A stretch of 21,061 nucleotides of DNA from a virus, in the IMG/VR virus record IMGVR_UViG_3300009481_000136, positions 1-21,061 of that record. The stretch is one strand, 5' to 3'. Position 1 is the stretch's first letter. The number at the start of each line of letters is the position of its first letter. The translations under genes and the position numbers were made by a program. A model generated the notes under the pieces. The model was not told the origin of the DNA. It was given only the letters and a program-made list of their open reading frames with translations, and did not search any database. Shown piece after piece: positions 2,456 to 21,061 of this stretch.

Positions 2456-3997
2456 TTACAGGTTTACTACCTCAGTGTCAAGCCAATTCTTTCCTATCTT
2501 CAATTCTATTTCAACAGGCATATCATATTCAACCTTGTATCGGTTCTCGCTCTCAATGGGTAGCGACAACATTGCGTACTCTAACAGCTTGATACAAGCG
2601 TCTTTCTCATCAGGATGTACATCAAGCACAATCGAATCGTGTACAGTATTACAGATAACTGACTTGAGTTCCCTAATCCGCATCATCCTACTTAAACGAA
2701 CAAGAGCAGTAGGAAGCAAGTCAGCGGTAGCAAAACCCTGTACAGGGTAGTTACATATCGCCGTGCGATTTGTGGCTGTACCCCACTCCGTCCACCGCGC
2801 AGATGGAAAAGCATACTGCCTACCACTTGGAAGGGTGATCTGCTTCGTTTTAACGGCCTCTCGCTGGAGTTTGTCATGCCAGAGGGTAACTCCCTCGTAT
2901 TTATCTTTAAAGGCTCTGTAGTAGCGTTGTTGAGCGTCTGTTCCGGTGGTGCCGCCGTATAGAGGCTTGAAGGTATGTGCCTTTGCTTCTTGTCGGCTGC
3001 ATCCGATAATATCTGCAGTATATTGGTGAACATCTGTACCCTCACTTACATCAACATAGGCTTGACTGTCCTTTGCAAGAAAGCCAGCTACTCTAAACTC
3101 TAGTTGCGAGTAATCCCCCTCAAGTATGTAGCCACCATCAAACCTACTCTCGACAACCTTTCGTATTGCAAAGGTATTACCTCGTGGCATATTCTGAAAG
3201 TTAGGATTGCGGCTCGAAAGGCGACCCGTCGCTGTAACACACTGCATGAACTCTGGATGGATGATACCATTCTCATCAACATTGTTTTTCATTCCCTCTA
3301 CAAAAGTATTCAGATAAGTACGCAAAGCATTGTACCGTATGTAAGCGGTGGCAAATTCCTTTGCATCACCTGTCAACTCTGTTGCTCTGTTTTCTAATGT
3401 AGTCTTGTCCGTCTTGAATCCAGCAGCAGCAGTATCGTAGGTATCACGCGGAACCAATTTGAATCCGGCAACCTCTCGCGTGGGTGTGTAAATCACACCC
3501 GCACCCTTGCAGGGTTTACAGACACGCAGCACTTTACTGGGTTTTCCGTTCTTATTGACGGGACGTACTTTACCAAAACCAACACACCCTGCACACCTAC
3601 TACCAACAGTCTTACGAACCACCTCTGTCATGCGACGAACTGTTGAAGTAAACACACTTCTTTTCATACGCACACGCTGTTTTGGTTTCATCGTGGCACC
3701 ACGCATCTCGTGACCCAAATTAAATATGCGTGACCATTCTTTCTTGTCCTTCACCTTACGGGAGTAAAGAAGAATACTACGATCATCTGGACTGGCAAGA
3801 TTGATGGGAGTATCCCCCATTGCTTCCCGCGCCATTTCATTCAGGCGTATCTCCAGTTCATCCAGTTCTGTCTGAAACTCTGTCTCAATCTGCTTCAGTG
3901 TGTCTAGGTTTATTTTCAATCCATTACGCTCTATCTCAGTGAGCGCTTCTGTCATCTCAAGCGACAGCCTCAACGTCGGTAACAAAGTCCGTTCCAA
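2456..3997 (-). CDS. family A DNA polymerase, polymerase domain, with DnaJ-like zinc insertion
   Basis: 513 residues covering the thumb, palm and fingers of a Pol I-type enzyme but lacking the exonuclease domain. Motif A is GDYSQLEFR with catalytic Asp295; motif B is Arg335-x3-Lys339-x3-Phe343-x3-Tyr347-Gly; motif C is TVHDSI with Asp454. Between the N-terminal thumb part (to about 95) and the helix entering TATGRLSSRNPNFQN lies an insertion with Cys135, Cys138, Cys160 and Cys163, in two CxxCxGxG-like repeats typical of the DnaJ zinc centre. I start it at TTG 3997 because AAGGAG sits exactly 7 bases upstream; the first in-frame ATG at 4033 lies deeper in the exonuclease gene. The TTG choice keeps the expected LLPTLRLSLEM segment. 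The exonuclease domain is encoded by the overlapping upstream gene in the other phase. Confidence 0.93.
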   Translation of the reverse strand: MERTLLPTLRLSLEMTEALTEIERNGLKINLDTLKQIETEFQTELDELEIRLNEMAREAMGDTPINLASPDDRSILLYSRKVKDKKEWSRIFNLGHEMRGATMKPKQRVRMKRSVFTSTVRRMTEVVRKTVGSRCAGCVGFGKVRPVNKNGKPSKVLRVCKPCKGAGVIYTPTREVAGFKLVPRDTYDTAAAGFKTDKTTLENRATELTGDAKEFATAYIRYNALRTYLNTFVEGMKNNVDENGIIHPEFMQCVTATGRLSSRNPNFQNMPRGNTFAIRKVVESRFDGGYILEGDYSQLEFRVAGFLAKDSQAYVDVSEGTDVHQYTADIIGCSRQEAKAHTFKPLYGGTTGTDAQQRYYRAFKDKYEGVTLWHDKLQREAVKTKQITLPSGRQYAFPSARWTEWGTATNRTAICNYPVQGFATADLLPTALVRLSRMMRIRELKSVICNTVHDSIVLDVHPDEKDACIKLLEYAMLSLPIESENRYKVEYDMPVEIELKIGKNWLDTEVVNL

Positions 3998-4541
3998 AAC
4001 ATAACTCCTTAAATGTAGTGCCAAAGGCATCAAGCTGTTTCAAGGCCACCTCTTCTGTGGCAAGTACGTCAGCTTTTCCGTACTCTTCTACTATCTCCCA
4101 CGGTATGTCGTAAAAGGTCTTGCCGTCCTTGAGGTACGGCGAAACAAGGTCTTTCTCCTTTTGGGTAACGTCATACTTTTCTGCAACAGCAGCAAGTCCA
4201 AGAGGCCAACGCTGGGCTTTTGCCAAAATATATTCCGCAACCATTGTATCATATACTTCTCCATTAAAAAAGAAACCACACTCTCTGATCCATGATAGAT
4301 CAAACTTGATGTTGTGTCCGACAATTGTATCAGCCTCGTTGAGTGCTTCCTGAAACAACTCAGGTGCAAAGTCATGGGGTTCCCTATCCGCATGGTAGTA
4401 GCAGTGATAGTGTACATGAGGTGATGACAAACGCTTATACCCGATAGACACAAGACGATTACCAAAGTATGGCAGTGCTGTTGTCCCACCCGTTTCTTTC
4501 TGTATGTGAGTTGTTTCTACGTCGAAGGTCAGTACGTTCAT
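3957..4541 (-). CDS. DnaQ-like 3'-5' exonuclease, proofreading half of a split polymerase
   Basis: 194 residues that match the exonuclease domain of family A polymerases. Exo I is FDVET with Asp7 and Glu9, Exo II is GHNIKFD with Asp81, and Exo III is Tyr154-x3-Asp158 (YGKADVLAT). It should remove mismatched 3' ends for the polymerase encoded immediately downstream. The true start is ATG 4541, which overlaps the HNH stop as ATGA and has GGAG 7 bases upstream; a longer reading from 4583 is possible but lies inside the HNH gene. The ORF ends 38 bases past the proposed polymerase start in a different phase, so the two halves are made separately or joined by frameshifting. The C-terminal residues after FKEL diverge from what a fused enzyme would have. 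Confidence 0.92.
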   Translation of the reverse strand: MNVLTFDVETTHIQKETGGTTALPYFGNRLVSIGYKRLSSPHVHYHCYYHADREPHDFAPELFQEALNEADTIVGHNIKFDLSWIRECGFFFNGEVYDTMVAEYILAKAQRWPLGLAAVAEKYDVTQKEKDLVSPYLKDGKTFYDIPWEIVEEYGKADVLATEEVALKQLDAFGTTFKELCFGTDFVTDVEAVA

Positions 4542-4906
4542 TTGTTTTCTCCAAACGTGTGTATCATGTGGCAGTTTGCACAAAGAACCCTACACTTTCT
4601 AACCTCATCCATCAAACGTTTTAGTTTCAGGGTTATCATGTTTGATACATCACGAACTTTAGTAGATGGGTCTAGGTGATCAAACTGAAGAGCAGCAGGG
4701 TTTTCATTGTAACCACACAGACTGCACCCTTTACGCACCTTATACATGTTGAGCCAACGTCTTCGTATTTTCTTCAAACGTGCCTTGTTATCGTAGTTTC
4801 TTTTCTTGGCAGCATAGAATTTATCTGGGCTTCTCCAGTCCTCATGCTTACCAGACATGCCCCAGAAAATCATACCATCTTCTCTGACATCACCATGCTT
4901 TGCCAT
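4538..4906 (-). CDS. HNH endonuclease, probably homing type
   Basis: 122 residues with a zinc-supported HNH fold: Cys61-x2-Cys64 (CSLCGY), the metal-binding FDHLDP with Asp76-His77, and Cys105, Cys109, Cys112 with His113 (CRVLCANCH). The N-terminal DGMIFWGMSGKHEDW segment followed by a basic helix (about 33-56) is common in phage free-standing HNH nucleases and may contact DNA. It shares one base with the helicase stop (TAATG) and its own stop overlaps the exonuclease start (ATGA), so it is fully embedded in the replication operon. Its place next to the polymerase exonuclease gene is a typical homing position. Whether it cuts a polymerase allele lacking it is not shown by the sequence. Confidence 0.9.
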   Translation of the reverse strand: MAKHGDVREDGMIFWGMSGKHEDWRSPDKFYAAKKRNYDNKARLKKIRRRWLNMYKVRKGCSLCGYNENPAALQFDHLDPSTKVRDVSNMITLKLKRLMDEVRKCRVLCANCHMIHTFGENK

Positions 4907-13402: not shown

Positions 13403-15055
13403 ATGGCTCAAGTCGCTACGAAGCGCACCTATCAGTTGTCTACAGCCGAACGTGCGCGAAGAGCAGCCCAGAAACGTTTACGTGACGCAAAGAAGAAAGC
13501 ACAACAAGCCACAAAAAAGGCTGAGACAAAACGAAAGAAAGCTCGTGATCTTGAAAGCACTATTGGAAGAGTTGAGAAAGCTATCAAGGGAGCAGACACA
13601 GCAGTCATCGACATGGGAGATATCTCCGTTTTACCCTCGTCCGTTTCCGATCTTGTGGGGGATTCCGAAGTTGTATTCCAAGCTAATCCCGGACCTCAAG
13701 AGGAGTTTCTTTCGGCGGGTGAAAGAGACGTTCTTTACGGTGGAGCGGCTGGTGGCGGTAAATCGTTTGCTTTACTTGCTGATCCCCTACGGTATTGCCA
13801 TAATGCCAATCATAGGGGTCTTCTTCTCCGGCGTACCCTCGACGAACTAACAGAACTGATAGACAAGTCACGCCAGCTTTACACAAAGGCGTTTCCCGGA
13901 GCAAAGTTCCGTGAATCAAAATCAACGTGGCACTTCCCATCAGGAGCCACGATATGGTTTACCTACCTAGACAGAGACAAGGACGTTACCCGATTTCAGG
14001 GACAGGCATTTAACTGGATAGGCATCGATGAGATTACCCAGTACCCCACACCGTATGTGTGGGACTATTTGCGTTCTAGGCTTCGTGCCACCGATCCTGA
14101 ACTTCAAGAACATTTGTACATGCGATGCACAGCCAACCCCGGAGGTGTAGGTGGCTGGTGGGTCAAGAAGACATACATTGACGGTACTCCCGAAAACAAA
14201 GCATTCCCTGCTTTTGACATAGACACACGTAAAACGTTTGTTTGGCCTAGCGGTCACGAAAAGGCAGGTCAGCCGCTCTTCTTCCGAAAGTTTGTTCCAG
14301 CGCGGTTGACAGATAATCCCCACCTCATGGCTGACGGTCAATACGAGGCTATGTTGCGTTCGCTCCCAGATGTCGAACGGAAGAGACTTCTCGAAGGGGA
14401 TTGGGATGTGGCAGAGGGAGCGGCCTTTCCTGAGTTTTCACGGACCAAGCACGTAGTCGAACCGTTTGAGTTGCCGACCAACTGGCCTCGCATACGAGCA
14501 GCCGACTACGGATACTCTGCACCATCCTGTGTTCTCTGGGGTGCAATTGACTGGGACAATAATATTTGGGTATACAGAGAATTATATGCAAAACACTTGA
14601 CAGCAGAGCAATTAGCTGATAGAATACTAGAAGCGGAACAAATTGACCCGTTACCTCATTACACCGTACTCGATTCTTCCTGCTGGAATAAGACAGGCTT
14701 TGGCCCGTCTATTGCGGAAGTTATGATGAGACAGGGAGTACGTTGGACCCCTTCTGATCGTAATCGTATTCAGGGCAAGATGGAGATACATCGTCGTCTG
14801 GCAGATGATCCATACACAAAGGAACCACGAGTCCGTTTCTTTTCGACTTGCCAGAACATCGTGAAACAAGTGGCTGGTATACCTCTTTCCAAAACAAATA
14901 GCGAAGACGTAGATACCAAAGCTGAAGATCACGCATACGACGCTTTACGATACATGATGATGACACGAATGAGCGGGTACGCTTCAATACACAAACAACT
15001 AGGCGCAATCAAGAACCACGTCCACAAAGTTCAAGACGAAGTATTTGGATACTAA
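13403..15055 (+). CDS. terminase large subunit
   Basis: 550 residues. The ATPase half has Walker A GGAAGGGKS (113-121), Walker B WIGIDE (205-210) and the coupling motif CTANPGG (242-248). The nuclease half has Asp368 (AADYGY), Asp424 (VLDSS) and Asp513 (EDHAYDAL), the RNase H-like metal site. It packages and cuts viral DNA at the portal. Residues 1-95 form an unusual extension: a strongly basic, probably coiled-coil helix (about 14-60, rich in Lys, Arg, Ala) before the usual start of the ATPase. No clear Shine-Dalgarno precedes ATG 13403, and the frame ends directly at the next gene's ATG (TAAATG). Confidence 0.96.
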   Translation: MAQVATKRTYQLSTAERARRAAQKRLRDAKKKAQQATKKAETKRKKARDLESTIGRVEKAIKGADTAVIDMGDISVLPSSVSDLVGDSEVVFQANPGPQEEFLSAGERDVLYGGAAGGGKSFALLADPLRYCHNANHRGLLLRRTLDELTELIDKSRQLYTKAFPGAKFRESKSTWHFPSGATIWFTYLDRDKDVTRFQGQAFNWIGIDEITQYPTPYVWDYLRSRLRATDPELQEHLYMRCTANPGGVGGWWVKKTYIDGTPENKAFPAFDIDTRKTFVWPSGHEKAGQPLFFRKFVPARLTDNPHLMADGQYEAMLRSLPDVERKRLLEGDWDVAEGAAFPEFSRTKHVVEPFELPTNWPRIRAADYGYSAPSCVLWGAIDWDNNIWVYRELYAKHLTAEQLADRILEAEQIDPLPHYTVLDSSCWNKTGFGPSIAEVMMRQGVRWTPSDRNRIQGKMEIHRRLADDPYTKEPRVRFFSTCQNIVKQVAGIPLSKTNSEDVDTKAEDHAYDALRYMMMTRMSGYASIHKQLGAIKNHVHKVQDEVFGY

Positions 15056-16807
15056 ATGGCTGAGAAAAAAGACCCAAACCAGATCACCCTTCGTGAAGCA
15101 GCCGATGCTTACAACGCTCGTGGTGCAGGTAAAATTGCACGATTTGGTGCAAAGGGGACTTTAAAGCAGTACGGAGATATACCTCTCGTACAGGCGTTTA
15201 CTCCAGATGAAAATGGTGTTCGTCTTATCGATACTATACTTGACAGTATGACAAGTCAAGGTGCAGCCAACTCTCTTCAGGATGATCTTCGTCTAATTTC
15301 AAAAGATGTAAACCGTAAAATATTTAACGCAGACCCTAACTCTCCGGCTTTAAATCTTCTTCCCGGCTTAGAAGCAGATGATCCTCAAACATTCAACATC
15401 TTTGGTGAGCGAGTATCAGCACCTAAACAAACTGAAATTGCAATTATAGCCCAAAACAAAAAGGGTTGGGGCGAGTTTATGCAGCAGTTAGATACTATTC
15501 GTCAAGGGGGCGGTGACGATGCTGTAATCGCTGATGCAATATATGTAAATTTACAAACTGGCTATCGTGCTGGAGCAGTTGCTGGTTTAACAGGCGCAGA
15601 ATATAAAGTAGATCGTGGCACAGTAGAAATTACACCGCAAACAAAAGCTACCCCTGAACTTGAAAAACGAACTGGCGCACAAAAAGTTGGGGGTAAGCGC
15701 GGCAAAGCTATCCCACAAGACGTACCGTTAAACGAACAGGCACATGCCCGTCTTCAACAACGTTTAGCTGCAAATCAAGAGGATGCAGGGATACGTGCTT
15801 TTATAGAAAGTAAAATTAAAGCTGGTAAAGCTGCCCCCATATTTGTAATTAAGGGAAAGGGCAAGAACTATCGTCAGGTAGATACGACAGATATGTCAAG
15901 AGTTCTTTCTCGTATTAAAACTTCTACGCCTATCATCAAAGATAATATTACAAACAAAGAATTTAACACCCTTTTACCTGATGATCCCGCATATTCAGGA
16001 AAAGATAAGAAGGGTAAGTTTGGTTCTGCTCTTCTTCGTAACGTATTTGCAAATGTTGCAGCTTTTGAAGTAGAAATATCTGATAAGATGTTAGACTTTT
16101 TACAAGGGCGTAGTTTAACTTCTGGTGCGGAAACTAGGTCAAAAACAGCTAAATCAGGTTACTTAGTTCGTCCTCGTGGAACATTCTATCCGGGGGAACG
16201 TGATGCTGCACAGTCAGTCGGCAACTGGTTTGATCAAGTCGAAGGGGTAGATGTAACTAAACGATTCAATCCAGAAACACAAACTGTTCGTGCAGCACAA
16301 TATAGTATTCCCGGAATGTTTGATCAGCCTGTATCACAAGCACCCATGCCAGCACCTGCTGCTCCTGTCGAATCTGCTGCTCCATCCAGCTATGCAGATT
16401 TTACTCAAGAAGACAGGGATGCACTCGCTAAAGCAGGTTTTAAGATAGATTTTTCTAAAATTGATAAAGGAAAAGCAGGTATAGCAGCGTTAATTACAAC
16501 AGGTATTGCGTCGGCTGAAGACGCTGTTGCTGCTACAAAAGAATTTCTAGGTGAATCTGGACGAGACTTAGCAATAGAAGGCGCACTTTTGGCAGCTAAA
16601 GCTCCAACTGCACTTGCTAGTGCTGCTACATTTGCTCTTGATCCTGACTTGGGAGTTGGTATCTCACCATCTACCTTGCGACCTGAAGATAGAATGGAAG
16701 CAATAGCTATGAAAGATTCGGCTATGAGATTAAAGCCTGAAGCAAGACAGGATTTTATTCCTGCACCTGAAGTTGAAGAAGACAACTTCCTAACAATGCA
16801 ACCATAA
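15056..16807 (+). CDS. divergent tyrosine recombinase-like protein with C-terminal extension
   Basis: 583 residues. Residues 10-95 look like a core-binding domain (ITLREAADAYNARG, helical). From about 120 the order matches tyrosine recombinases: PKQTEIAII, then ADAIYVNLQTGYRAGAVAGL with Arg171 as box I Arg; KRGKAIPQDVPL (214-225); PIFVI (261-265); SALLRNVFANVAAF with Arg328 as box II Arg; FLQGRS (348-353) where LGHS is expected; and Tyr369 (SGYLV) as nucleophile candidate. The box II His is Ala325 and the box III His is Arg352, so catalysis may be altered or lost. A Pro/Ala-rich linker (about 425-445) leads to a helical, Ala-rich C-terminal part (470-583). Lying between terminase and portal is unexpected for an integrase. 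Confidence 0.65.
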   Translation: MAEKKDPNQITLREAADAYNARGAGKIARFGAKGTLKQYGDIPLVQAFTPDENGVRLIDTILDSMTSQGAANSLQDDLRLISKDVNRKIFNADPNSPALNLLPGLEADDPQTFNIFGERVSAPKQTEIAIIAQNKKGWGEFMQQLDTIRQGGGDDAVIADAIYVNLQTGYRAGAVAGLTGAEYKVDRGTVEITPQTKATPELEKRTGAQKVGGKRGKAIPQDVPLNEQAHARLQQRLAANQEDAGIRAFIESKIKAGKAAPIFVIKGKGKNYRQVDTTDMSRVLSRIKTSTPIIKDNITNKEFNTLLPDDPAYSGKDKKGKFGSALLRNVFANVAAFEVEISDKMLDFLQGRSLTSGAETRSKTAKSGYLVRPRGTFYPGERDAAQSVGNWFDQVEGVDVTKRFNPETQTVRAAQYSIPGMFDQPVSQAPMPAPAAPVESAAPSSYADFTQEDRDALAKAGFKIDFSKIDKGKAGIAALITTGIASAEDAVAATKEFLGESGRDLAIEGALLAAKAPTALASAATFALDPDLGVGISPSTLRPEDRMEAIAMKDSAMRLKPEARQDFIPAPEVEEDNFLTMQP

Positions 16808-16825: not shown

Positions 16826-17044
16826 ATGCCAGATTATAATAAAGGTGCCGCTTACATAATGAACTCCGACAAGGAGTCTGTTGATGATCAAGCAGGTGTA
16901 AATCAACTATATCGTGAAGGTCTTGAGTTCCCAACTCGTGTAAAGACAGGACCAATCACAGAAGATATGCCAAAGAAACAAACCAAGCCTACAGTAGAAG
17001 CCTCATTTAATAAGATGGCAGAAGATCGTAACTACTTCAGCTAG
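16826..17044 (+). CDS. hypothetical protein, 72 aa
   Basis: A 72-residue polar protein without a hydrophobic core (MPDYNKGAAYIMNSDKES at the start, ending KMAEDRNYFS), probably extended or disordered. GGGGAGAG lies about 6 bases before ATG 16826. It stands 10 bases before the portal gene, so it is a head-operon member, perhaps a minor virion or assembly factor. No family recognised. Confidence 0.7.
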   Translation: MPDYNKGAAYIMNSDKESVDDQAGVNQLYREGLEFPTRVKTGPITEDMPKKQTKPTVEASFNKMAEDRNYFS

Positions 17045-17054
17045 GGGTAAATAG

Positions 17055-19178
17055 ATGGCTGACAATTTCCTAGAACCGGATGATGATACATCAATCCCCA
17101 TAAACTCTCCGCGTGAGCAAATGCCGGGGTTGGCGGGACACATCCATTCTAAATTTGAGGACTCTGAAAACGGACGGTTCTCGTATGAACAGCGTTGGAT
17201 TCAGGCGTATAAAAACTTTAGGGGAATCTACGATTCAACTACACAATACCGTGACTCCGAAAAGTCAAAGGTATTTATCAAGATTACCAAAACTAAAGTG
17301 CTTGCAGCATACGGACAAATTGTTGACATCTTATTTGCAAACAAGAAGTTTCCTTTAGTTGTTGAGTCTACTCCAATGCCGGAAGGTATTGAGGAGTTTG
17401 CTCACATGAAGACCCCAGTAGATGATCTTCAACCAGAACAAGCTGACCCCTACGGGTTTGAAGGTGATGGTCGGGAGATACCGCCGGGGGGTCTTGCTGC
17501 ATCTGAACCTGCACACAGTCTGGGTTCATACGGTAAAGACTTTGGTGACGCTATTCTTCCGGGACGAGCCAAAGCAGGTGAACCCCAGTTTGAGCCAGCT
17601 AAAGAAATGGCTCGTAAAATGGAGAAGTGCATCCACGATCAGCTTCTTGATACAGGAGCAGTAAACGTGATGCGTAAAGCTATCTTTGAAGCTGCTCTTT
17701 TAGGCACGGGCATAATCAAGGGACCGTTTAACTTTTACAAACGAGTCCACAATTGGAAAAACGACGAACAAGAAGGTCGGGTATACGATCCCTACGAAAA
17801 GACTGTCCCTCGCATTGAACACGTTTCTATCTGGGACTTTCATCCTGATCCTGCCGCGACTAACCTTGAGGACTGTGAGTACGTAATACAACGTCACCGT
17901 ATGAACCGTCAACAACTACGTAGTTTGATTATGCGTCCTCACTTTTACGCAGAGGCAATCGAAGAGTGTCTTGGTAAAGGGCCAAACTATGCGGATAAAT
18001 ACTACGAAGATACCATTCGTGAAGATGAAACCGAAGCCTACTACCAAGAGAACCGTTTTGAGGTTCTTGAATATTGGGGCATTATTGATGCTAAGTTTGC
18101 CAAAGAAGTTGGCATGGAAGGAACCGAAGAACTATCAGAGTTCGACCAGATGCAAGTCAATGTCTGGGTGTGTGGTACAAGTATTCTTCGCTGTGTCGTA
18201 AATCCGTTTACTCCGGCACGTATCCCGTTTCAGGCATTTCCATTTGAGATCAACCCCTACCAAATCTGGGGCGTTGGTGTAGCAGAGAACATGGAAGATG
18301 CTCAGATGTTGATGAACGGTCACGTCCGTATGGCAATCGACAACTTAGCCCTAGCTGGTAACCTTGTATTTGATGTGGATGAGGCCAGCTTGGTTCCCGG
18401 ACAGAACATGGACATTTTTCCCGGAAAGATATTCCGTCGTCAGTCAGGTGTAACCGGAACAGCTATCAACGGACTCAAGTTTCCCAACACTGCTGGTGAA
18501 AACATCCAAATGTACCAAATCAGTAGGCAGCTTGCAGATGAGGAGACGGGTATACCGTCCATAATGCACGGTCAGACGGGCGTAACAGGCACCGGACGTA
18601 CTGCAGCCGGACTGTCGATGTTGATGGGGTCTGCTGGGCTTTCTATGAAGACTGTAATCAAGAATATTGACGATCACCTGTTAAAACCACTTGGTGAGGC
18701 ATACTTTCAATGGAATATGCAATTCAACGACCGTGTGGAAGATGTAACAGGTGATCTAGAGATTAAACCACGCGGTGTAGCAGCCGTGATGCAAAAGGAA
18801 GTACGCACCCAGCGTCTTACCTCTTTGTTACAAACCGTAGCCAACCCCATGCTGGCTCCATTCATCAAAATACCTAACCTGATGCGTGAACTAGCTATCT
18901 CACAGGATATTGATCCTGACAGTTTAGTTAATGATGCTAATGAAGCGCAAGTTTACGCTCAGATGTTACAAGGAATGATGCAAAATGCTCAACAACAAGC
19001 AAGCCAAGAATCTGGCCCCCCTAATCAACAACAAGGAATGGGAGAGGTTGGAGGAGTACCTAGCGGAACTCAAGGACTGGACGATTCGGGCAGTGGTAAC
19101 GGCACAATCGGAGTCGGAACTGCGCCAACTGCAGGGGAAGCTGGCTTTACTGGAAACACTCCTGCAATTGAAAACTAA
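17055..19178 (+). CDS. portal (head-tail connector) protein
   Basis: 707 residues. It has the pattern of podovirus portals: an N-terminal helical region (QRWIQAYKNFRGIYD), KVLAAYGQIVDILFANKKF near 80-100, a stem/wing region with VSIWDFHPDPAATNLEDC near 255-275, and GQTGVTGTGRTAAGLSML near 505-520, after which long helices follow. It forms the ring through which DNA is packaged and ejected. AGGGGT lies 6 bases before ATG 17055. Residues from about 640 to 707 are low-complexity, rich in Gln, Gly, Ser and Thr; this part overlaps another gene in the +1 phase. Confidence 0.93.
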   Translation: MADNFLEPDDDTSIPINSPREQMPGLAGHIHSKFEDSENGRFSYEQRWIQAYKNFRGIYDSTTQYRDSEKSKVFIKITKTKVLAAYGQIVDILFANKKFPLVVESTPMPEGIEEFAHMKTPVDDLQPEQADPYGFEGDGREIPPGGLAASEPAHSLGSYGKDFGDAILPGRAKAGEPQFEPAKEMARKMEKCIHDQLLDTGAVNVMRKAIFEAALLGTGIIKGPFNFYKRVHNWKNDEQEGRVYDPYEKTVPRIEHVSIWDFHPDPAATNLEDCEYVIQRHRMNRQQLRSLIMRPHFYAEAIEECLGKGPNYADKYYEDTIREDETEAYYQENRFEVLEYWGIIDAKFAKEVGMEGTEELSEFDQMQVNVWVCGTSILRCVVNPFTPARIPFQAFPFEINPYQIWGVGVAENMEDAQMLMNGHVRMAIDNLALAGNLVFDVDEASLVPGQNMDIFPGKIFRRQSGVTGTAINGLKFPNTAGENIQMYQISRQLADEETGIPSIMHGQTGVTGTGRTAAGLSMLMGSAGLSMKTVIKNIDDHLLKPLGEAYFQWNMQFNDRVEDVTGDLEIKPRGVAAVMQKEVRTQRLTSLLQTVANPMLAPFIKIPNLMRELAISQDIDPDSLVNDANEAQVYAQMLQGMMQNAQQQASQESGPPNQQQGMGEVGGVPSGTQGLDDSGSGNGTIGVGTAPTAGEAGFTGNTPAIEN

Positions 19179-19209
19179 TTATGTCGAGGTTATAAAAAAT
19201 GGCAACTAA
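18985..19209 (+). CDS. helical protein overprinted on the portal tail, 74 aa
   Basis: 74 residues read in a different phase from the portal and overlapping its last 194 bases. The sequence looks like a genuine helical, coiled-coil-like protein: KQAKNLAPLINNKEWERLEE, then a leucine/glutamate-rich second helix (SESELRQLQGKLALLETLLQ). I recall short proteins of this pattern directly after portal genes in other phages. AAGGA lies 10 bases before ATG 18985, and its stop lies inside the start of the next gene (19199). By contrast the portal frame here is low-complexity, suggesting the portal tail is constrained by this gene. Confidence 0.68.
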   Translation: MLNNKQAKNLAPLINNKEWERLEEYLAELKDWTIRAVVTAQSESELRQLQGKLALLETLLQLKTNYVEVIKNGN

Positions 19210-21061
19210 CCCAACCATAACATTACCAAGAATTAACATGGGGGGCAATATGCCGTTACCGGGGAACGCTGTGCCGTTACCTTCACCCCCGAATCCACTG
19301 CTTCCCGCTGGACCGGGGACCACGACTCCTCGCACTCCATTTTTTAATCCTACTTCAATAAGCAAAAACCAGTACATGTCAGGGGGAGTAGACTTTTACT
19401 CTCAAGCATTAGATACAACAGGAGTCGGTGTAGTAAGAACTCCCGGATTAGAGGATGACGACGACGATAGGGATGAATCTAATTTATCAGGACAGGATGG
19501 TCAAGGGGACCAACCCCCCTCTGTATTAGAGTCCACTTTAGGAGAGGGTTTAACAAATCAGTTTGCAGTAACAAACTATGGCGTAGACGATATTAATTTT
19601 GGTCCAGACAGCAATAATACATACAATTTTACAAATGTACCCGGAATGACTATGGATACAGCTACTGGAAGGGTAGCTAGGGATTTAAATAGCAATTGGT
19701 CTGATTCACTTTTTGACTATGCTGAAAATACTTTATTTGAAGGGGCAAAGGCTGGATTCCAAGCAACAAGAAGTCAAGTAATGGGTATTGGTGAGGACGG
19801 TAAACCAGCAAAAGACCGTTCATTTATAGACAAAGTTAGTGACTTATTAGGTAGTCAAGCTGGTGTGCGACCATTCGGCACCACACCCTCTTCAGTCAGT
19901 CCCGGTGGTGCAGTTGGTATGGTGGTTGGACCTGTGATTGGTGGACTCGCAACTGCCTTTGGGGGTATGAATCTGGCTAATCAGGCACGTAACGCTGCTG
20001 CCTATAAAGCAACAGGTGGTACAGGTGGTGCAATAATGGAAGTGGGTGGTCAGATGGTCAGCCGTATGCCGGGAGCGTCCACCTTCCCCGGAGAGTTTGG
20101 GGGTAAAGTAGATAGCTTTTTAGGGGGATTAACAGACCCGATTTCGGGGGTGGCTCTCAACAGAAATTATTTGGGCGGTATGCACTTCGTATATTCGGGT
20201 ACTATGAGGGGACTTAATAACTTCCAGATGGCGGCAAGAGAAGCAGCCAGTTATGGATTCGTTCCGGGTACGTTGATAGAAACATACGATCCTGCCTCGA
20301 AAAGATATGTAAAAGCTAGTGCTATAAATAAAAACCAATACATGACTAGTAATGATATGCAAAATAACGTGGGTGGTACTTACAACCCTGAAACCGGAAC
20401 GTTTGTAGACCTGAACGGAAACTCATCTGCAATGGGTACGAAGAAAGCAGCACAAGCGTATGTTAAAGGAATAAACAACGTATTCGGTAAAAATGTTTTA
20501 AGTTGGTCAGACGTTTCAAGAGGTCGTGCTGCAGCTAGAGCGAGAGGAATTGATTTTGTTGATTACATGGAAGAACTAGCCGTATCAAGAGGTGGTAACG
20601 CAGCACGAGCAAAAGCAATCATGGGAGATATAAACCAAGTAACTGGGGGTGTTCGACAAAGAGACTTCAGCGATGATGGCGGCGGTGCCTTACAGGATGT
20701 TACTAAAGAAGGAAGAGCAGCAGGGTTTACTGAGTATGGTAAATTTGGGTACGAAGATGACGACGGTGGCAGCGGCGATATGGGTCAGGGTGACGGTCAA
20801 AGTGACAACCCCGGTGGTGGCGGTATGTCAGATAGAGGTGGTTTTGAAGGTTTTGAAGGTGATGCTATGGGCGGCACAATTACGTCTGGTCGCCCTCAAA
20901 ACAGAATGCAAGAAGGTGGTGTTGCAATGGAACAACCTGCTGGCTTTGTTGAGCGTCCCCCGTCACAAGTCTCAGACGGTCAGACTGTAGCAGATGACGT
21001 ACCCGCAACTGTTGGAGAGGGTAGTTTTGTAATCAACGCCCCTGCCGTAGAGTTTGCAGGA
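19199..21061 (+). CDS. large Gly-rich virion-type protein (3' end cut by window edge)
   Basis: The frame is open for 621 codons with no stop and runs off the right edge. It begins MATNPTITLPRINMGG, followed by a Pro-rich segment (about 15-50), an acidic run of five Asp near 90, and a hydrophobic glycine-rich stretch (SPGGAVGMVVGPVIGGLATAF, one or two possible membrane helices near 235-260). Then comes a helical region, a Gly/Asp-rich linker (about 515-560) and VGEGSFVINAPAVEFAG at the edge. The start overlaps the stop of the overprinted gene by 11 bases. Its place directly after the portal suggests a structural, scaffold or ejection role; no family was recognised. Confidence 0.85.
   Translation, partial: MATNPTITLPRINMGGNMPLPGNAVPLPSPPNPLLPAGPGTTTPRTPFFNPTSISKNQYMSGGVDFYSQALDTTGVGVVRTPGLEDDDDDRDESNLSGQDGQGDQPPSVLESTLGEGLTNQFAVTNYGVDDINFGPDSNNTYNFTNVPGMTMDTATGRVARDLNSNWSDSLFDYAENTLFEGAKAGFQATRSQVMGIGEDGKPAKDRSFIDKVSDLLGSQAGVRPFGTTPSSVSPGGAVGMVVGPVIGGLATAFGGMNLANQARNAAAYKATGGTGGAIMEVGGQMVSRMPGASTFPGEFGGKVDSFLGGLTDPISGVALNRNYLGGMHFVYSGTMRGLNNFQMAAREAASYGFVPGTLIETYDPASKRYVKASAINKNQYMTSNDMQNNVGGTYNPETGTFVDLNGNSSAMGTKKAAQAYVKGINNVFGKNVLSWSDVSRGRAAARARGIDFVDYMEELAVSRGGNAARAKAIMGDINQVTGGVRQRDFSDDGGGALQDVTKEGRAAGFTEYGKFGYEDDDGGSGDMGQGDGQSDNPGGGGMSDRGGFEGFEGDAMGGTITSGRPQNRMQEGGVAMEQPAGFVERPPSQVSDGQTVADDVPATVGEGSFVINAPAVEFAG

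Follow-up and report, generated by a model that had tools for sequence, protein, structure and literature searches.

A tyrosine recombinase-like gene with an exchangeable enzyme domain occupies the terminase-portal interval in marine phages related to HMO-2011

The window, the whole 21,061-nucleotide stretch of DNA analysed here, is a 21-kb virus record from IMG/VR (IMGVR_UViG_3300009481_000136) in which profile searches recognize a terminase large subunit (TerL), a portal protein and a small TerS-like ORF. Between TerL and portal lies a gene for a tyrosine recombinase-like protein whose ATG abuts the TerL stop codon without a gap (TAA/ATG); a short ORF separates it from the portal gene, which is followed immediately by a second polymorphic gene (Table 1). 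By portal (46-51% identity) and by TerL, the nearest isolates are the HMO-2011-type phages of SAR11, SAR116 and Roseobacter. Elsewhere in the window, inspection by eye finds a DNA polymerase encoded on the minus strand (2456-4583) by two overlapping ORFs, exonuclease-like (3957-4583) and polymerase (2456-4033), with a CxxC..CxxC DnaJ-like zinc-finger stretch mid-gene, reflecting either a split or a frameshift; a small HNH-endonuclease-like ORF (4538-4906, minus strand) sits between the helicase and polymerase genes.

Table 1. Features of the terminase-portal region, in coordinates of the window
Feature	Position	Strand	Basis or remark
Terminase large subunit (TerL)	13403..15055	+	profile match
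Tyrosine recombinase-like gene, 583 aa	15056..16807	+	ORF list, alignments, profile, predicted structure, Foldseek
N-terminal helical region, aa 1-125, probable core-binding domain	15056..15430	+	helices 12-21, 44-47, 57-63 and 68-92 in predicted structure
Cassette region replaced in L034, aa 5-430	15068..16345	+	flanks 95.8% and 90% identical DNA
Catalytic domain, about aa 135-372	15458..16171	+	profile, AlphaFold, Foldseek
Arg171, box I catalytic Arg, invariant	15566..15568	+	family alignments
Position 215, Arg in window, probable beta2-beta3 catalytic Lys position	15698..15700	+	alignment; loop with low pLDDT, less certain
Ala325, where HxxR usually has its His; no family member has His here	16028..16030	+	alignment
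Arg328, box II catalytic Arg, invariant	16037..16039	+	family alignments
Arg352, His/Trp-III position	16109..16111	+	Arg 130 / His 105 in family
Tyr369, putative nucleophile, invariant where covered	16160..16162	+	family alignments
Variable Ala/Gly/Pro-rich C-terminal tail, aa 426-583	16331..16804	+	ends EDNFLTMQP, a variant of the GF(I/L/V/M)-type terminal motif
72-aa ORF in recombinase-portal interval	16826..17044	+	occurs in relatives, conserved
Portal protein	17055..19178	+	SU10_portal PF23899, phrog_332
Second polymorphic gene, immediately 3' of portal	19199..21061	+	open at window end

A first-pass annotation, made from the letters alone, had read TGYRAG (Arg171), ALLRNVFAN (Arg328), LQGRS (Arg352) and Tyr369 as tyrosine recombinase boxes, with 24 residues between Arg328 and Arg352; the translation bears out every position, and the spacing is 22-25 across the family. 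Searched alone, the window protein has no match among Pfam or PDB sequences and a weak integrase match in PHROG (E 0.033). PF00589 matches 35 of 67 family members (E up to 1; best 5.3e-9) and phrog_1 matches 42 of the 67, while the family profile retrieves from the PDB the Xer-like/XerC-like 4a8e (E 1.3e-10) and Tn1549 Int (3e-9), and also XerA, XerD and XerH. An AlphaFold (AF2) model based on 72 non-redundant homologues (pLDDT 86.7, pTM 0.76) was compared with known structures using Foldseek: the top 30 PDB hits comprise only tyrosine recombinases, protelomerase and topoisomerase IB, which form one superfamily, with Tn1549 Int the best (probability 1.00, E 1.4e-3) and Xer, Cre-derived Tre, XerH, IntI and Cre among the leaders; viral structures return phage integrases and nudivirus VLF-1. 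The E-values are modest and the whole-chain TM-scores low (0.2-0.35 by query), so that the identity of the hits rather than their score carries the argument; the low TM-scores would be consistent with a different domain placement and are no proof of a standard architecture. In the model, Arg171 lies between helices 153-168 and 172-176, Arg328 within helix 323-338, Arg352 after helix 343-349 and Tyr369 in a short helix (366-369), and these predicted secondary-structure elements are those on which the catalytic residues of a recombinase are expected to fall. Together, the profile matches and the predicted structure support the tyrosine recombinase fold and, at the level of the model, residues 135-372 as the catalytic domain.

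In alignments of 67 and of 72 divergent homologues (15-16% mean column identity), no columns other than those of Arg171, Arg328 and Tyr369 are invariant; the motif matches are therefore not due to chance. Among the 240 loci these three residues have zero exceptions where covered (235, 236 and 229 sequences, respectively). Position 215 is Lys in 202 and Arg in 27 of the 238 sequences that cover it, the window having Arg with a Lys nearby, in a loop that is poorly modelled. Position 352 is Arg or His and nothing else in 235 sequences, and position 325, mostly Ser, Ala, Lys or Tyr, is never His in 236. The earlier reading that both catalytic His are replaced is correct for the window copy, but the family divides it: His is absent from 325 throughout, whereas at 352 roughly half the members have Arg and the others His. 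The altered site is therefore a family trait, not a defect of this copy. Archaeal integrases with KxxR or YxxR in place of HxxR are known, as in the SSV1-type (R..KxxR..Y) and pNOB8-type (R..YxxR..Y) enzymes, and SSV1 Int has been shown to be active (PMC8371274). These enzymes belong to archaeal viruses and plasmids; their Lys and Tyr are among the residues found at position 325 of the slot family, whereas the window has Ala. At the His-III position, SSV1 Int carries Arg. Within subfamilies, NG86 omega lies mostly at 0.03-0.08, with 0.19 in a single very close pair and several dS values saturated, and these comparisons show the recombinase gene to be under strong purifying selection. Loss of catalysis appears unlikely because the catalytic residues are kept in every assessable sequence, and the recombinase is probably catalytically active.

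Scans of IMG/VR by two portals, and by two recombinase subfamilies alone, place family members at 242 loci, which include overlapping cuts of the same contig and are therefore not a count of independent phages. The gene lies between TerL and portal at 180 loci, beside TerL only at 29, beside portal only at 30 and on 3 bare fragments; the 59 loci with a single neighbour sit at a contig end, and none of the 242, including those found by recombinase sequence alone, has a member outside the TerL/portal slot. The placement first noted for one genome is a fixed rule of the clade, and in almost all loci the gene starts at most about 10 bases from the TerL stop. The 240 members comprise 153 distinct proteins with about 15% column identity; close relatives of the window protein (70-98%) occur at about 20 IMG/VR loci. 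The portal-based scan yields 80 loci, nearly all of which, given enough flank, have one ORF of 530-790 aa in the slot, and single linkage joins 76 of its 76 distinct proteins. Neither the window protein nor four other subfamilies have a homologue among GenBank phages, no cultured phage encoding the recombinase was found, and a search of the bacterial genome collection with the family returned no member. Six GenBank records without the slot recombinase (HMO-2011, HTVC115P, HTVC033P, phiM6, RHph_N3_19 and MW202701) carry different genes, or none, in the TerL-portal interval; in CRP-3 the slot is empty and a canonical int lies elsewhere. The carriers are marine, abundant, largely uncultured phages related to the HMO-2011 group. 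A literature search (subscription journals being outside its coverage) returned nothing relevant on integrases encoded in the terminase-portal interval or present in phage virions.

The enzyme domain changes hands between close relatives. Window and L034 DNA are 95.8% identical up to base 15067, unalignable to 16345 and 90% identical from 16346 (residue 431), the break falling 11 bases into the recombinase gene; in L035 and L037 identity resumes only at the last codons. Where portals are at least 98% identical, 17 of 37 pairs have cores that are less than 40% identical or lack a BLAST match, and 98 pairs with portals 75-80% identical have cores at least 70% identical; members are shared among pairs, and these counts are therefore not independent. 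Tails track neither partner strictly and are exchanged separately from the enzyme domain. By these alignments, the recombinase domain is shown to behave as a cassette swappable between near-identical phages. Comparison by eye of the TerL stop with the gene end revealed no repeats at the junctions of the kind expected of a self-mobile cassette. In some slot proteins the N-terminal part includes an additional region, about 130 aa long (L034:1276-1660, L066:954-1340, L070, L100 and L006:3628-4041; FPE(K/R)R..QIS; MANDDIKFVKEN), which is common to unrelated recombinase cores and constitutes a third exchangeable module.

The Pro/Ala linker and Ala-rich C-terminal part described in the first-pass annotation are present; the tail, 150-220 aa in slot recombinases, is variable. 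A GF(I/L/V/M)-like end occurs in 92 of 104 tails (5.6 in shuffles) and in 31 of the 79 downstream polymorphic ORFs (3.7 shuffled), and this common end is suggestive of a shared virion signal. Tail hydrophobicity is modest; there is therefore no clear membrane segment. A late protein of about 180 aa, encoded upstream of genes for 660-860 and 1550 aa (L272:16974-17513; L278:18040-18567, minus strand; L276:11276-11821), ends in a motif of the recombinase-tail type (ERGFLS, DNFINM, RNFLNM). The ORF 3' of portal (in the window and in L017, L041, L034 and L109) encodes 636-1150 aa and varies in length and sequence despite near-identical capsid genes; some of these downstream ORFs have a cell-wall hydrolase domain (PF07486, E 2.9e-11 in L107), which suggests an ejected protein.

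Position, swapping and invariant catalytic residues together point to an enzyme whose action on phage DNA would come at about the time of packaging or injection, and not to a conventional integrase. The protein is also inferred to be associated with the head. The explanation that we favour, at about an even chance, is an active tyrosine recombinase that is produced together with the head and packaging proteins and probably has packaged or incoming phage DNA as its substrate, with a logic like that of VLF-1. Virion carriage and action on packaged DNA ends, both raised by the first-pass annotation, would fit the gene context and the tail. The tail would hold the recombinase to the head or portal region; the docked enzyme would be packaged and enter with the DNA, or else act at the portal vertex during packaging, and the recombinase domain would use Tyr369 to break and rejoin phage DNA at a specific site. 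No recombination site for the slot recombinase was found. The most likely outcome would be a circularized or resolved genome, possibly an integrated one, and domain diversification would amount to changing target-site specificity. A fuller version, in which the protein is a phage equivalent of VLF-1, delivered in the virion, has a tail for docking and an exchangeable cassette that sets specificity, and circularizes or resolves the genome at entry or packaging before gene expression, is more tentative and somewhat doubtful. The strict late-operon position could also be a regulatory chance fixed by linkage.

By analogy, VLF-1 of baculoviruses and nudiviruses is the closest working parallel: it belongs to the tyrosine recombinase family and is tied to the virion and to DNA packaging or processing (PMC3649998; PMC6669607), is a virion component, and has a conserved Tyr that is required for infectious virus, the Tyr mutant being non-infectious (PMC3649998). 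Its hosts differ, as these are nuclear viruses of insects with an unrelated capsid, and VLF-1 has been shown in virions whereas the slot recombinase is known here from genes alone; by the predicted structure, an evolutionary link would be a matter of resemblance at the fold level only. We know of no cassette swapping in VLF-1. Ejection proteins such as 80alpha gp44 and T7 gp14-16 are likewise mosaic and late, with a portal-adjacent gene in the case of gp44 (PMC7290940; PMC8954989), but none is reported as a tyrosine recombinase in the literature covered. The ejected gp44 binds DNA ends, and a role in promoting circularization has been proposed for it (PMC7290940); an ejected protein can therefore serve genome ends.

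The main rival, unlikely but still to be taken seriously, is an ordinary phage integrase moved into the late operon, which would integrate into the host chromosome, be absent from the virion and be swapped as attB changes. Phage tyrosine recombinases are usually read as lysogeny markers and expected near attP. The slot proteins share the fold and all catalytic Arg and Tyr with the PF00589/phrog_1 integrases, to which they have weak to moderate profile matches, and a canonical integrase is absent from the same genomes: contigs of 47-57 kb with the slot gene (four of 54-57 kb) contain no second integrase-like gene, in a search that gave the control CRP-3 int E 1e-32. Temperate members exist among the HMO-2011-type phages, with int placed elsewhere (PMC9038755; CRP-3). 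However, CRP-3 int, 1.07 kb long and located upstream of primase, has no long tail, whereas the slot genes sit in the head operon directly behind TerL, lack the HxxR His and encode the long tail. The swapped unit is a domain, not a gene plus intergenic attP, and no tRNA or RNA-family match, the only attP proxy examined, lies near the gene (Rfam matches are chance-level only). A search by portal for prophages of the clade found none, among hosts that may be poorly sampled; one genome of 84,980 species has a portal relative, on a 4115-bp MAG Winogradskyella contig (L268) with an unrelated 347-aa ORF upstream of portal and no recombinase.

Rather improbable is a recombinase of conflict, virion-delivered or made late, that acts on host, plasmid or rival-phage DNA and varies in an arms race. 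An extreme swap rate with constant catalytic residues and a second polymorphic gene on the other side of portal would suit it, but no target is known and no immunity partner is seen alongside, where there is only the 72-aa ORF, itself conserved. The first-pass annotation also offered a recombinase domain exapted to a structural role; such a catalytically dead DNA-binding scaffold, very unlikely, would account for the missing HxxR His and for Arg at 352 in half of the members, but it would not be expected to hold exactly Arg171, Arg328 and Tyr369 at about 15% column identity, with Lys or Arg at 215 in 229 of 238 sequences. Exaptation by catalytic loss is disfavoured because none of the sequences covering these positions has lost Arg, Arg or Tyr, and purifying selection is strong. 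A protelomerase making hairpin genome ends is hardly credible: TelA appears low in the Foldseek list, but neither the window nor the four 54-57 kb contigs contain palindromes with arms of at least 14 bp, and one contig of 54,901 bp is bounded by perfect direct terminal repeats of 91 bp, like those of circularly mapping genomes.

Throughout a clade related to HMO-2011, a recombinase is kept in the packaging operon, its catalytic residues invariant and its domain exchanged between near-identical phages. If, as the preferred explanation has it, the enzyme works on phage DNA when the genome is packaged or enters the cell, this would be a genome-processing step new for tailed phages in the literature searched, and would caution against inferring a temperate lifestyle from an integrase match. 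The hundreds of natural cassettes are a potential source of new site-specific recombinases.
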